DNA of 38,611 nt from Bacteroidaceae bacterium. Lineage in GTDB: Bacteria; Bacteroidota; Bacteroidia; Bacteroidales; Bacteroidaceae. The translations under genes and the position numbers were made by a program. The stretch is from positions 1 through 38,611 of the forward strand of contig JAFYWH010000140.1 of the NCBI GenBank assembly GCA_017558175.1, written 5' to 3'. This document shows positions 4,010 through 38,275 of this stretch, piece after piece. The notes below the pieces were generated by a model. That model worked only from the letters and a program-made list of their open reading frames with translations. It was not told the DNA's origin and made no database searches. Position 1 is the first letter of the stretch; every line of letters starts with the position of its first letter.

Positions 4010-4099
4010 TTTTAGGCACGGATTACACGGATGGCACGGATATATTTAATGTAAACATATACTTAAAACCGTGTTAATCCGTGTAATCCGTGCCTAAAA
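4010..4099. repeat. 23-bp inverted repeat, CACGGATTACACGGAT type
   Basis: Arms at 4010-4032 and 4077-4099 are perfect reverse complements over 23 bases, starting TTTTAGGCACGGATTACACG. Beyond that they diverge: a third partial CACGGA unit continues the left arm and ACACGG the right. The core is itself a direct repeat of roughly CACGGATTA. It lies between the convergent acetyltransferase and Fe-S membrane protein genes. It would fold in RNA from either strand and is most likely a dispersed REP-like element. Confidence 0.75.
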
Positions 4100-10762: not shown

Positions 10763-11197
10763 ATGAGTACCTCACCGACCCAACGACTTTTCATCACATG
10801 GCACACCTTGCTGATGCTGGTAGCCGGATGGACCATAGGACCAGCCATCGCCACCTGGTGGCCGGAACATTACTTCGGATGGTATCCGTTCATCCCGGTG
10901 TTCTTCTACATCTTCGGATGGTTTACCATCAGCATGTTCGAGGCTTGCCGACGCTTCGCACCGAAAAAGATTCAGCTGGTATACTTGGGCACGAAGGCCA
11001 TCAAGATGTTCTTCTCGCTCATTGTCCTGCTCATCTATTCGGTCAAGGTAGATGAAAAGAAGGTGGAGTTTTTCCTGGTATTCTTCGGATTCTACATTCT
11101 CACATTGGTGTTCGAAAGTTGGTTCTTCTATCGGTATGAACGAGGGAATAAAACTACCTGTCATTCAGACGACCGAAGGGAGGAAGAATCTCGATAA
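10763..11197 (+). CDS. ATP synthase operon membrane protein; C-terminus supplied by a dispersed repeat
   Basis: The protein has 144 residues with about four membrane spans, roughly residues 10-30, 40-58, 75-93 and 103-122. It holds the position between atpC and atpB where Bacteroidota operons carry an unnamed gene, and AtpI-like proteins of other bacteria are similar in size and topology. Homology to AtpI is not visible by eye. The last twelve residues, CHSDDRREEESR (133-144), are encoded by the 35-base repeat unit at 11159-11193, and the stop codon lies in the loop of the inverted repeat. The native C-terminus was therefore probably replaced or extended by the element. The start ATG is 4 bases after the atpC stop. 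Confidence 0.85.
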   Translation: MSTSPTQRLFITWHTLLMLVAGWTIGPAIATWWPEHYFGWYPFIPVFFYIFGWFTISMFEACRRFAPKKIQLVYLGTKAIKMFFSLIVLLIYSVKVDEKKVEFFLVFFGFYILTLVFESWFFYRYERGNKTTCHSDDRREEESR

Positions 11198-11243
11198 CAT
11201 AAAGTGAATGTCTCCGAGATTCTTCGCTTCGCTCTGAATGACA
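11159..11243. repeat. Inverted repeat element between orf and atpB (35-base and 29-base arms)
   Basis: The left arm 11159-11193 and right arm 11215-11243 share 11 bases at each end when one is inverted: TGTCATTCAGA and GAAGAATCTCG. The middles differ: the left has a six-base-longer CGACCGAAGGGAG-type core, the right the GCGAAGC core. The left arm is 32/35 identical to the unit inside atpG (15916-15950). The right arm is of the CATTCAGAGCGAAGCGAAG kind that I recall as a very widespread bacterial dispersed repeat. In mRNA it would form a long hairpin between orf and atpB. Confidence 0.85.
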
Positions 11244-15333: not shown

Positions 15334-16218
15334 ATGGCATCACTGAAAGAAGTCAAAGGACGCATAGCCACCGTGAACAATACGCGGAAGATTACTTCGG
15401 CCATGAAGATGGTGGCATCTGCCAAGCTACACAAGGCTCAGGGGGCTATTGCCAATATGCTTCCTTACGAACGCCGTCTGCACGGACTGCTCACCAACTT
15501 ACTGAGTGGTGGGGAGGTTCTGTTGTGGAACACCCCTCGCGAGGTAAAGCGTGTGGCTCTTGTAGTGTTCTCGTCCAACTCCAGTCTTTGTGGAGGCTTC
15601 AATGCCAATGTCATCAGGCAAGCCACAGCCTGGCTGGAAGAACACAAGGCTTTGGGTGCCGAGAATGTCTTGATATATCCGGTAGGGAAGAAGGTAGCCG
15701 ATGCCTTGCAGAAGCATGGATATATCGTGCAGGGTGACTTCCAGCAAATGGCCGACAAGCCATCGTTTGCAGAGGCTTCGTCCTTAGCTCAACAACTGAT
15801 GGACATGTTTGCTCATGGCGAAGTGGATAGGGTAGAACTGCTCTACAACCACTTCAAGAGTACTGCTTCGCAGATTCTTACGCATGAAGTGTATTTGCCT
15901 ATGTCTTCTGAGGTTTGTCATCCAGACGACCGAAAGGAGGAAGGATCTCGAGTACATCCACAAGAAACAGACTACATCCTCGAACCTTCTCGCGAAGAGT
16001 TATTGACTATGCTCTTGCCCAAGGTTCTCCGCATGAAGCTCTATACCGTGTTGCTCGACTCGAATGCATCCGAACATGCTGCCCGCACCATGGCCATGCA
16101 AATTGCCACCGACAATGCCGACGATTTGCTTCAGGAACTCACCCTGATGTACAACAAGACCCGTCAGCAAGCCATCACTAACGAATTGCTGGATATTGTA
16201 GGCGGTTCCATGGCATAA
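15334..16218 (+). CDS. atpG: F1Fo ATP synthase subunit gamma, with a repeat-derived insertion
   Basis: The protein has 294 residues. The rotor shaft is recognised from the N-terminal helix MASLKEVKGRIATVNNTRKITSAMKMVASAKL and the C-terminal helix LMYNKTRQQAITNELLDIVGG. The central Rossmann-like region includes VVFSSNSSLCGGFN. Residues 195-206, CHPDDRKEEGSR, are encoded by a 35-base copy of the dispersed repeat that also ends the unnamed gene of this operon. The insertion keeps the frame and lies in the surface region between the central domain and the last helix, a part that varies in length among gamma subunits. The protein should be functional because both helices are intact. It is the last gene of the operon. 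Confidence 0.96.
   Translation: MASLKEVKGRIATVNNTRKITSAMKMVASAKLHKAQGAIANMLPYERRLHGLLTNLLSGGEVLLWNTPREVKRVALVVFSSNSSLCGGFNANVIRQATAWLEEHKALGAENVLIYPVGKKVADALQKHGYIVQGDFQQMADKPSFAEASSLAQQLMDMFAHGEVDRVELLYNHFKSTASQILTHEVYLPMSSEVCHPDDRKEEGSRVHPQETDYILEPSREELLTMLLPKVLRMKLYTVLLDSNASEHAARTMAMQIATDNADDLLQELTLMYNKTRQQAITNELLDIVGGSMA
15916..15950 (+). repeat. 35-bp dispersed repeat unit inside atpG
   Basis: The unit starts TGTCATCCAGACGACCGA and ends GGATCTCG. It differs at 3 of 35 positions from the unit at 11159-11193. In both genes TGT CAT is read as Cys-His, so the frame is the same. Because 35 is not a multiple of three, flanking bases must have been added or lost to keep atpG open. Confidence 0.85.
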
Positions 16219-27604: not shown

Positions 27605-28746
27605 TTATGAATGATCTTTTCAATGTATTCTGTCGAGAACTCCAAAGAATGAATTCCCGTCGCATCTATTGGGTGGCATGTTTGGTGCTACCCTTGTTCT
27701 CGCTTGTATTCATGGCTACGATTTTCGGGGACGGACAAATGAAAGATCTTCCCATAGGAGTAGTGGATGAAGACAATACTTCCGCCTCTCGGCACATTGT
27801 ACGCATGGTGGATGCAACTCCCGAACTTCATGTAACCCAACACTTTGCCAACGAAACGGGAGCAAGAAAGGCGATGCAAAAGAAAGAGATTTATGGATAT
27901 CTGCTTATCCCTTCGAAGATAACCTCGCTCTGCTATTATTATCACAATGCGATGCTGAGTGTAGGAGGGGAGCTACGTTCCACATTCGAGACGATTTTGC
28001 AGGAAGTATCCGTTACGCCTATTGTTACGGAAGCTATCGGATTGGGAGAGAACGAATCGACCCTCACTTCCTTCCTGATGCCGGTATCAGAAACGGAATA
28101 CCCAACCTACAACGATACCCGTAACTATGCGGTGTACCTTAGTCAACCATTCTTTTTTGTATTCCTACAAATATTGTTGTTGCTTGTCACCACTTATGCG
28201 TTAGGAAGCGAAAGCAAGTTCGGCACATCCGATGAATGGTTGGAATCGGCAAAAGGAAACATGGGCATTGCGGTAATGGGGAAACTTTTGCCTTACACGC
28301 TTATTTTCATCACGATAAGTATATTTGCCAATGTAGTATTCTTCAAGTGGATGCAGATTCCCCTTCCTTGTAGCCTTTGGACAATCAACGGAGTGACCAT
28401 CTTATTCATTTGTGCTACACAAGCATTAGCTTTGTTCCTTTATGCCATTTTCCCGGCATTGAGTTTGATTATCAGTGTAGCATCCATGGTCGGTTCCTTA
28501 GGAGCAACCTTATCGGGAGTTACTTTTCCGGTACTCTTTATGGATACACCTGTCTATGGGGCCTCGTTTCTTTTCCCTATCCGGCATTTCGTGGAAGTGG
28601 TGCAATCGCTTCTTTACCTCGATGGCACCTTTGCCGATTATTGGCCAAACATAACCATCCTTTTAATTGTTTGCATATTGCCCATCGTGTTACTTCCTCG
28701 TTTGAAGCATGCGCTTATCACCCACAAATATGATTCGATTGAATGA
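27601..28746 (+). CDS. ABC-2 type permease, first of a pair
   Basis: The protein has 381 residues. One N-terminal membrane span (about 22-42) is followed by a long extracytoplasmic loop beginning with LPIGVVDEDNTSASRHIVRMVDATPEL, and about five C-terminal spans end with PIRHFVEVVQSLLYLDG. This is the ABC2_membrane_3 (YhgE/YbhS-like) layout. It starts in overlap with the adaptor stop (ATGA). It is paralogous to the following gene: the VVDE...SR...DATP pattern recurs in both. No ATP-binding gene is present in the operon, so a separately encoded ATPase must be assumed if this is an ABC exporter. Confidence 0.9.
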   Translation: MIMNDLFNVFCRELQRMNSRRIYWVACLVLPLFSLVFMATIFGDGQMKDLPIGVVDEDNTSASRHIVRMVDATPELHVTQHFANETGARKAMQKKEIYGYLLIPSKITSLCYYYHNAMLSVGGELRSTFETILQEVSVTPIVTEAIGLGENESTLTSFLMPVSETEYPTYNDTRNYAVYLSQPFFFVFLQILLLLVTTYALGSESKFGTSDEWLESAKGNMGIAVMGKLLPYTLIFITISIFANVVFFKWMQIPLPCSLWTINGVTILFICATQALALFLYAIFPALSLIISVASMVGSLGATLSGVTFPVLFMDTPVYGASFLFPIRHFVEVVQSLLYLDGTFADYWPNITILLIVCILPIVLLPRLKHALITHKYDSIE

Positions 28747-29899
28747 CATAATCCGGATTGCGAGATACGAATGCCGAAGCATTCTCCGTAGCCTTCCCAT
28801 CCTTTTGGTTATGGGAGGAGGTATATTTTTATACGGTATGCTGTATAATTATATGTACAGCCCCAATGTGCTACGAGAAGTTCCTATGGTTGTGGTTGAT
28901 GAAAGCCATACGCCATTGAGCAGACAATATATTCGATTGCTTGATGCCACTCCTCAAGTTCATGTACAAGGGGTGATTGCCGATATGCCCCAAGCTCATG
29001 AGCGCATGAAAGAAGGGAAAGCAACAGGCATCGTATTCCTTCCCGAAGACTTTGAAACCAAAGTAAGCAGGGGAGAGGAATCTGTTTTTGTTTCCTATAA
29101 CACCACCATGGCGTTTCTATCGTATGCCACCATAAAGGAGGCTACAAGTGGTGCCATGCTTGCATTGGATACTTCCGTTCGCCCCAATCAAGTGGTATTC
29201 TTGGATGCTGATGTGGTACAACCGGTTGTGAATACCCCAAGCATCCCCGTGCAAGGGATTGCCTTGTACAACGAGAATGGTGGTTATGCAACGTATCTGA
29301 TTCCTTCGGTACTGATGGTAATTATCTTCCAGACCATGCTGATGGTCATAAGTATGCAATGCGGAAAGGAATATGAACTACAGATACGTCCTTTTTGGAG
29401 TGCCACTAATTACAATTCATCGTGGGGATGGGCAATAAGCATGGTGATAGGCAAATCGGTGGTATATGTGGGGTTCTACGCCTTGTTTTCCGTATTCTTG
29501 TTGGGCTTGCTTCCTTTAGTATTTGATTTGCCACACTTAGCAAGTCCGTTACTACTCGTACAATTGCTTACGCCTTATTTATTTGGTACCGCTTTCTTTG
29601 GATTGGCATGTTCGCCATTCTTCAAGGATAGCGATGCACCTTTGTTGCTCATTGCTTTCTTCTCGGTAGGTTTGTTGTTCCTTTCCGGTATCTCATGGCC
29701 TTTGGAGTTGATGCCCTGGCCATGGCGTTTGCTCCATTGCTTGATTCCTGCACCCGTAGGCGTACTTGCCTTTGTAAAAGCCAATTCCATGGGAGCAGAT
29801 TTATCAGACATCAGCAGGGAAATGATGTTGCTATGGGGACAATGCGTAGGATATTTTGTTTTAGCTTGTTGGGGGTATAAAAGAAAATGTCATCCTTAG
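28730..29899 (+). CDS. ABC-2 type permease, second of a pair; C-terminus ends in a dispersed repeat
   Basis: The protein has 389 residues from ATG 28730, overlapping the previous gene by 17 bases (28709 is a possible longer start). It has the same layout as its neighbour: an N-terminal span (29-50), an extracytoplasmic loop opening VPMVVVDESHTPLSRQYIRLLDATPQ, then five to six spans with SGISWPLELMPWPWRLLHCLIPAPVGV, the conserved pre-final helix. The last three residues, CHP, and the stop codon lie within a copy of the 35-base repeat (29888-29922). It probably pairs with the first permease as a heterodimer. Confidence 0.9.
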   Translation: MIRLNDIIRIARYECRSILRSLPILLVMGGGIFLYGMLYNYMYSPNVLREVPMVVVDESHTPLSRQYIRLLDATPQVHVQGVIADMPQAHERMKEGKATGIVFLPEDFETKVSRGEESVFVSYNTTMAFLSYATIKEATSGAMLALDTSVRPNQVVFLDADVVQPVVNTPSIPVQGIALYNENGGYATYLIPSVLMVIIFQTMLMVISMQCGKEYELQIRPFWSATNYNSSWGWAISMVIGKSVVYVGFYALFSVFLLGLLPLVFDLPHLASPLLLVQLLTPYLFGTAFFGLACSPFFKDSDAPLLLIAFFSVGLLFLSGISWPLELMPWPWRLLHCLIPAPVGVLAFVKANSMGADLSDISREMMLLWGQCVGYFVLACWGYKRKCHP

Positions 29900-29922
29900 G
29901 CCCATCGGTCGTCTGGATGACA
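29888..29922 (-). repeat. 35-bp dispersed repeat copy at the 3' end of the export operon; probable terminator hairpin
   Basis: Read on the minus strand its first 18 bases, TGTCATCCAGACGACCGA, are identical to the unit in atpG; the inner part then diverges and the last bases are GGATGACA. TGTCATCC and GGATGACA thus form an 8-base-pair stem, followed on the plus strand by TTTATTCT. It lies between convergent genes and may act as a terminator for both. Confidence 0.7.
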
Positions 29923-38190: not shown

Positions 38191-38275
38191 TCCCCTCTTG
38201 AGAGGGGTTAGGGGTGTGTGAGACACATCAAGTATATGCATACTAACACACCCCCTTCCCCCTCTCAAGAGGGGA
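38191..38275. repeat. Inverted repeat with CCCCTCTTGAGAGGGG ends
   Basis: Arms at 38191-38219 and 38246-38275 are reverse complements with a few changes. Each begins TCCCCTCTTGAGAGGGG and continues through a G-rich stretch to TGTGT. The middle is AT-rich. Each arm tip is also a palindrome of its own. This resembles a REP/MITE-like dispersed element common in Bacteroidota. It separates gcvP from the GH92 gene on the same strand and shows no T-run, so it need not terminate. Confidence 0.8.

Follow-up and report, generated by a model that had tools for sequence, protein, structure and literature searches.

It is known that the unit of REPIN/RAYT systems is an inverted pair of REP hairpins, and that the cognate RAYT is a Y1 transposase. 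According to the accessible sections of Di Nocera et al. 2013 (PMC3733652), CGTC-tagged REPs are found in five phyla including Bacteroidetes, they occur mostly as head-to-head dimers, they seem to have no dedicated transposase, and RPE-4 and RPE-6 are counted among them. The same sections present palindromes lying in frame in genes as an already published, general phenomenon, and the main text of that paper does not mention ATP synthase. The Rickettsia palindromic elements (RPEs), as portrayed in the available parts of PMC3733652 and PMC10969869, are palindromic repeats in frame in the genes of unrelated, conserved proteins. A gene segment added to the ATP synthase gamma subunit is known from phototrophs: in cyanobacteria and chloroplasts the Rossmann domain of gamma carries 30 or 39 inserted residues, which govern ATP hydrolysis in cyanobacteria and hold the redox cysteines in chloroplasts (PMC8390522, in the portion available). 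Here we describe a familiar kind of event at an uncommon site, namely a dispersed REP-like palindrome that lies in frame within atpG, the gamma subunit gene, of a Bacteroidaceae genome. The analogy with the Rickettsia elements, drawn for a housekeeping gene in a first-pass annotation of this DNA, was supported. With this case, the in-frame palindromes that invade proteins, best known in Rickettsia, now include one in a core rotary motor subunit of a Phocaeicola-type lineage. The dispersed hairpin repeat seems to be tolerated in a small, floppy loop encoded by this ATP synthase shaft gene.

The window, i.e., the whole stretch of DNA analysed, is 38,611 nt long, and its features are collected in Table 1. 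The atpG ORF is open over 294 aa and contains the 35-nt unit in frame as residues 195–206, just as the first-pass annotation had read it. The match of this unit to the copy at 11159–11193 (32 of 35 positions identical), also reported there, was reproduced; these are the sole two places in the window with three mismatches or fewer from the 35-mer, and shuffling expects none, on which ground a chance match was rejected. The same annotation had held that a loop shared by close relatives, together with a unit unrepeated elsewhere, would speak for chance or for ancient homology of the protein loop. The loop is indeed variable among the relatives compared, which favours such an explanation, but an exact arm family was found genome-wide, a half-spacer extends the repeat beyond the arm, and 31 of 33 compared loops are without the insert, so that we regard it as next to impossible.

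The two copies are read in the same frame, as had been stated earlier; the copy at 11159–11193, however, encodes the last 12 residues of its ORF, which we take from its position to be atpI, and is the left arm alone of an 85-bp inverted dimer (11159–11243). In addition to the two copies that had been noted in the window, there is a third one on the opposite strand, which gives the ORF that it overlaps its last codons and its stop (CHP followed by the stop codon).

Table 1. Positions of the repeat copies and their host reading frames in the window
Feature	Position	Strand	Basis or remark
atpG, F1 ATP synthase gamma subunit, host of the insertion	15334..16218	+	top PDB hits: gamma chains of ATP synthases (2qe7_G, E 7e-50)
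REP-like arm, 35 nt, in frame in atpG, peptide CHPDDRKEEGSR	15916..15950	+	class C7-G29, private A at position 20; covariance model 53.8 bits
half-spacer AGTACATCCAC, remainder of the proposed 46-nt monomer	15951..15961	+	spacer weight matrix
long (left) arm of complete dimer; also codes the C-terminal tail CHSDDRREEESR of ORF 10763-11197	11159..11193	+	
dimer spacer, 21 nt; first bases close the upstream ORF (cgaTAA)	11194..11214	+	
short (right) arm, 29 nt	11215..11243	-	
ORF in atp operon, last 12 codons repeat-derived	10763..11197	+	G029 homologue ends in RYERGQKVKK and stop, without the repeat
third copy, 35-bp collapsed palindrome TGTCATCC...GGATGACA	29888..29922	-	overlaps the 3' end of ORF 28709-29899

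The window genome (2.25 Mb in 159 contigs, 86% complete) gave 72 matches in a search with the whole element. When it was scanned with a covariance model built on the long arm, it yielded at least 112 arms in at least 71 places, arms less than 120 nt apart being joined into one place; both figures are lower bounds, with 150 of 1626 candidates scored. This count, which had been suggested as a check of the first reading, confirmed that the unit is dispersed, and the frames of the copies vary. The 71 places consist of 31 single, 39 double and one triple, and 38 of the 39 two-arm places are inverted with the tags outermost. The usual element is an inverted dimer of about 85 bp, composed of a 35-nt arm, a spacer of about 21 nt and a 29-nt arm in reverse complement; its outer ends read TGTC/GACA. 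Arm matches are present in 25 of the 61 genomes of the genus. The repeat is a REP-like palindrome family that has multiplied in part of a single genus (Phocaeicola, going by the named records). Peptides and repeats related to it are probably common in annotated Bacteroidota genomes. In open-licence papers no description of this repeat in Bacteroides or Phocaeicola, or in atpG, was found. Ten pairs of repeat places common to the window species and a sister species (G031, genome 84% complete) were compared by eye, and some of them show paired changes within the arms. Seven arms of the window genome are 52–62 nt long (C36:15890, C38:4496, C68:7389, C82:6909, C82:11138, C121:3009 and C159:2060) and have a nested insertion of the type ACGTGTTGTTGAG... 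within the hairpin, both arm ends being kept. This nested insertion is preserved in the orthologous pair L214/L259, and in the pair L049/L307 it is present only in the G031 member.

The structure of the arm was drawn from the 15 distinct 35-nt long arms of 22 dimers of the window genome (without the atpG arm and without those of 36 and 39 nt), and the count was then repeated on arms of G031. In the first set, 97.1% of the cells in the seven proposed pairs were standard pairs, and the covariation was 0.459 versus 0.167 after shuffling, a value reached in 0 of 500 shuffles. For the G031 set, 34 of 50 distinct arms were used, seven of 36 nt and nine with altered ends being excluded; this set includes the atpG arm of G031, and several of its members recur with the same sequence in the first set. 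With the same structure, 97.5% were standard pairs and the covariation was 0.495 versus 0.176 (0 of 500). One of the five covariation measures, further pair types, was not above the shuffles in either set (357 of 500 in the first, 425 of 500 in G031). Pairs changed on both sides reached a value matched by 4 of 500 shuffles in the first set and were not above the shuffles in the G031 set (277 of 500). The long arm is accordingly modelled as a hairpin, in which seven standard pairs are interrupted by conserved GA/GA mismatches and closed by a 3-nt apical loop. The first stem pairs are A5-T31 (15 of 15 arms in the window genome and 33 of 34 in G031) and T6-A30 (14 of 15 and 34 of 34). Two of the three differences between the window copies fall at positions 7 and 29, which pair with each other, and are therefore compensatory. 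In 11 of 22 dimers the left arm is of another class (T7 or C7) than the right arm, and thus the pairing unit is the arm. The DNA folding energy of a lone arm was not unusual (z +1.2 and +1.35), so that the hairpin rests on covariation, and that of the whole dimer was unusual (z -6.6). Under RNA parameters, the proposed structure was closely approached by the best fold of the atpG arm but not by that of the 11159 arm.

The repeat shares several properties with the CGTC REPs as the accessible text of PMC3733652 depicts them. Both are short, dispersed hairpins tagged with CGTC or TGTC at one end (CCTC being a further tag admitted for the published REPs), with A-T and T-A as the first stem pairs; inverted dimers are common, some copies are in frame in genes, and a dedicated transposase is lacking. 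However, the published REPs have a continuous stem of 8–9 bp, a loop of 4–5 nt and mostly a CCA tail, whereas in our case seven pairs are split by GA mismatches, the loop has 3 nt and the arm ends in CTCG followed by an 11-nt half-spacer. Unlike them, the present repeat also has two arm lengths of 35 and 29 nt, the short arm being modelled with six pairs. The tag is TGTC in nearly all of the listed arms and CGTC in one of the 92 long arms of G031, as found with search models built from TGTC arms. Because the stem, the loop and the tail differ, we did not file the repeat in any of the four published CGTC families.

REPIN/RAYT systems, too, are built on REP hairpins in inverted pairs, but no Y1 transposase was found with the pairs here. 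The Y1_Tnp domain (PF01797) was not found in the window genome, nor in any of the 10 genomes with at least 25 arm matches; these genomes are 54–92% complete, six of them below 84%, and therefore the absence is firm only jointly. The domain is present in six of the 61 genomes of the genus, and one genome with 17 arm matches (G017) has one. The search was positive in five of 14 named genomes used as a control. A RAYT-driven REPIN was rejected on the absence of Y1_Tnp from the window genome and from the 10 repeat-rich genomes.

The outer ends TGTCATTCAGA...TCTGAATGACA are perfect inverted repeats in many dimers, as would be expected of a classical MITE whose terminal inverted repeats are acted on by a DDE transposase. 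A target duplication of 4 nt or more, however, flanks none of 31 dimers in the window genome and none of 71 in G031, and a DDE-type MITE making such duplications was rejected on these counts; the first-pass hint at a target-site duplication was likewise not supported by them, although one of 2–3 nt is conceivable. The covariation lies within the arms, and the arm class is mixed in half of the dimers, which also disagrees with a MITE, and we consider this origin improbable. A flank match of 2 nt occurred 19 times in G031 versus 12 expected (p 0.01), in AT-rich flanks, and four times versus five expected in the window genome. The repeat would thus have been moved by some agent other than a resident RAYT, one whose insertions are not flanked by target duplications of 4 nt or more. 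With more than 100 arms and strong covariation, the family offers a route to asking how repeats spread without a RAYT or a clear target duplication.

In atpG, the repeat-derived DNA runs on beyond the arm to about position 15961, as a half-spacer. The 11 nt on the 3' side of the arm, AGTACATCCAC, scored 12.15 on a weight matrix built from 38 dimer spacers, whose own median is 10.9; this level is reached by 3.8e-5 of the 11-mers in both strands of 30 atpG genes, AGTACATCCAC included. The corresponding half-spacer of the G031 gene, AGAACGCAAAG, scored 7.88 (4.0e-4 of the 11-mers), and a half-spacer hence adjoins the atpG arm in both genomes. Arms without a recognised downstream partner number 27 in the window genome and 11 in G031, both atpG copies included, and several of them have a like half-spacer and then diverge (e.g., L212, L216, L217, L260, L272 and L288). 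Since some other partnerless arms still show a degenerate partner, this survey is support, not proof, of the monomer boundary. By its sequence, the copy in atpG resembles a monomer of 46 nt, made of one arm and an 11-nt half-spacer. The earlier frame arithmetic, in which a 35-base unit needs extra bases to stay in frame, is consequently superseded: the monomer is apparently 46 nt, and the loop has gained 6–10 codons over five close relatives.

An alignment of AtpG from related species had been proposed as a check, and it set the insertion apart. Among 33 proteins of the same genus, the loop contains the insert in two, those of the window genome and of the sister species G031. Thus, a before/after comparison is available, with the insert in two sister species and its absence in 31 other loops. 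Of the 61 genomes of the genus, 52 gave a match of a 75-aa probe across the whole loop, 19 of these 52 being judged by score alone. Only two stood out, with 100% and 88% identity, the next being 82%. The remaining nine genomes gave no spanning match. One of these is G013, in which the variable loop coincides with a contig break that divides atpG (L321 end and L322 start; C54, C111); neither contig end has the repeat, the genome has no repeat match, and it was excluded from the counts. Measured from YLP up to the following EP, the loop has 32 codons in the window genome, 30 in G031 and 22–24 in G029, G010, G070, G072 and G073, and loops of 28–32 codons without the repeat occur also in 16 of 28 others compared. 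The net gain over the five close relatives is less than a 46-nt monomer, and so a part of the old loop was probably replaced.

The arm variant ACCGAAAGG, with its private A20, was found once among 51 long arms of the window genome and once among 92 of G031, counting the long arms found in the fetched loci, and in both cases it is the atpG copy. A private variant common to both genes favours one ancestral insertion. Two separate monomer insertions into the same loop, one in each species, should also be considered, because the half-spacers AGTACATCCAC and AGAACGCAAAG resemble two different spacer types and the codons on the 5' side of the arm differ in number, to which a single origin fits less well. 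Nevertheless, none of the remaining 50 and 91 long arms has the shared variant, the 3' junction is at the same place without a gap, and the G031 protein is the closest to the window AtpG among those searched (86%). Two insertions are therefore unlikely, if somewhat less so than a MITE origin. Very probably, a REP-like monomer was inserted once, in frame, into an ancestral atpG and has been carried since as a tolerated, near-neutral passenger. By this scheme, one 46-nt monomer would have lodged in atpG of the common ancestor of the window and G031 species, in the stretch coding for the loop that follows the last Rossmann-domain strand and precedes the C-terminal helix; the frame would have been kept while part of the old loop was replaced, and the insert would since then most likely have been near-neutral.

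The nature of this loop was examined with an AlphaFold model of AtpG (48 sequences), which had a mean pLDDT of 90.0. Residues 200–205 were the sole segment of three or more residues below pLDDT 50, and they lie between the strand 180–188 and the helix 220–293. The loop of the insert is thus probably disordered, as modelled, and variable in length, and the notion of a tolerant site, advanced earlier, was borne out by the varying loop lengths of the relatives and the low model confidence. The PDB match to chloroplast gamma, 6fkf_g, was split in two stretches, the best of which ends at query residue 196. The insert apparently occupies the same Rossmann-domain loop as the regulatory insertion of phototrophs, the match of position being approximate. 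Apart from the place, the two are unlike. The atpG insert is repeat-derived, exceeds close relatives by 6–10 codons, has low pLDDT and has no cysteine pair; a homologous insertion of 30–39 residues with a beta-hairpin was not what the atpG segment showed.

This placement raises another explanation, in which a cysteine-bearing repeat peptide was recruited at the phototroph insertion site as a functional or regulatory element of gamma. The insertion of phototrophs controls ATP hydrolysis in cyanobacteria and holds redox cysteines in chloroplasts (PMC8390522, as far as available), and the 6fkf_g match splits at query residue 196. Moreover, the two species do not differ in any of the 12 codons of the peptide or of the 38 nt around the arm, although they share only 61% of codons at same-residue positions and 58% of third codon positions. 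The 38-nt identity could reflect selection, but a run of at least 38 identical nt appeared in 652 of 20000 codon shuffles, and a 47-nt identical run between the two genes is present also at the start of atpG. Strong nucleotide-level selection on the atpG copy was dropped as a candidate, the codon shuffle being compatible with chance. The low confidence of the peptide in the model, its single unpaired cysteine, the lack of conservation in the neighbouring loop residues and the occurrence of like repeat peptides in unrelated proteins all argue against a recruited loop. Domestication is possible, on support that does not go beyond chance, and we hold such a recruitment to be as improbable as a MITE; that the monomer is kept codon for codon in two species and modulates ATP hydrolysis is slightly more improbable still. 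The passenger reading is retained, and the locus allows one to ask whether gamma-subunit loop insertions are neutral.

In the window genome, six of the 71 places lie within long ORFs that were counted as genes: atpG, a tandem ABC-ATPase and four BT4734-like ORFs. ORFs with an arm at the extreme N- or C-terminus, whose start is perhaps misassigned, were not counted, nor were ORFs without a Pfam match or a visible paralogue (e.g., L051, L059, L212 and L217; Pfam was run on 10 ORFs). In the tandem ABC-ATPase (PF00005), the repeat lies in the linker between the two domains. The linker length is hardly altered, and therefore part of the linker was replaced. The BT4734-like ORFs are on C5, C27, C38 and C132; two of them match PF08800 and two were recognised by eye. 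In these four ORFs (L209, L174, L175 and L205), repeat-derived segments are located in apparently the same linker, which suggests that the insertion is older than the duplication of these ORFs. G031 has a repeat-derived insertion in an enzyme that we presume to be RluA-like from its GRTHQLR motif; ten orthologues lack the segment or differ there, and the window genome has no match to this enzyme. The in-frame copies use differing frames (CHPDDR, SEAKNL and EILRRxAPLDD) and also the opposite strand, so that no frame is privileged, and the fixed Cys-His (CHPDDR) frame implied by the first reading did not hold. Like the Rickettsia elements, this palindromic repeat is in frame in ORFs of several kinds (atpG, ABC ATPase, BT4734-like and RluA-like), but the host is different, recognised genes account for six of the 71 places, and the copies are read in several frames.

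The window contains other inverted repeats. At 4010–4099 there is a second, distinct palindromic repeat with 23-nt perfect inverted arms, TTTTAGGCACGGATTACACGGAT, 44 nt apart, and a repeat in L055 is flanked by similar sequence, CACGGATTACAC. A third inverted repeat, TCCCCTCTTGAGAGGGGTTAGGGG, is located at 38191–38275 and is 92% complementary. CCCCCTT...AAGGGG motifs are also present downstream of several single arms.

Two dimers of G031, L293:8863–8947 and L304:2961–3045, abut the 5' ends of two genes, presumably encoding a surface-antigen-like lipoprotein and an endonuclease/phosphatase-like protein. The right arm reads MLPRSFASLWMTLL... and MFPRFFASLWMTLL..., respectively, straight into an apparent signal peptide, and the ends of the repeat (ggATGaca) may supply the start codon of these two genes.
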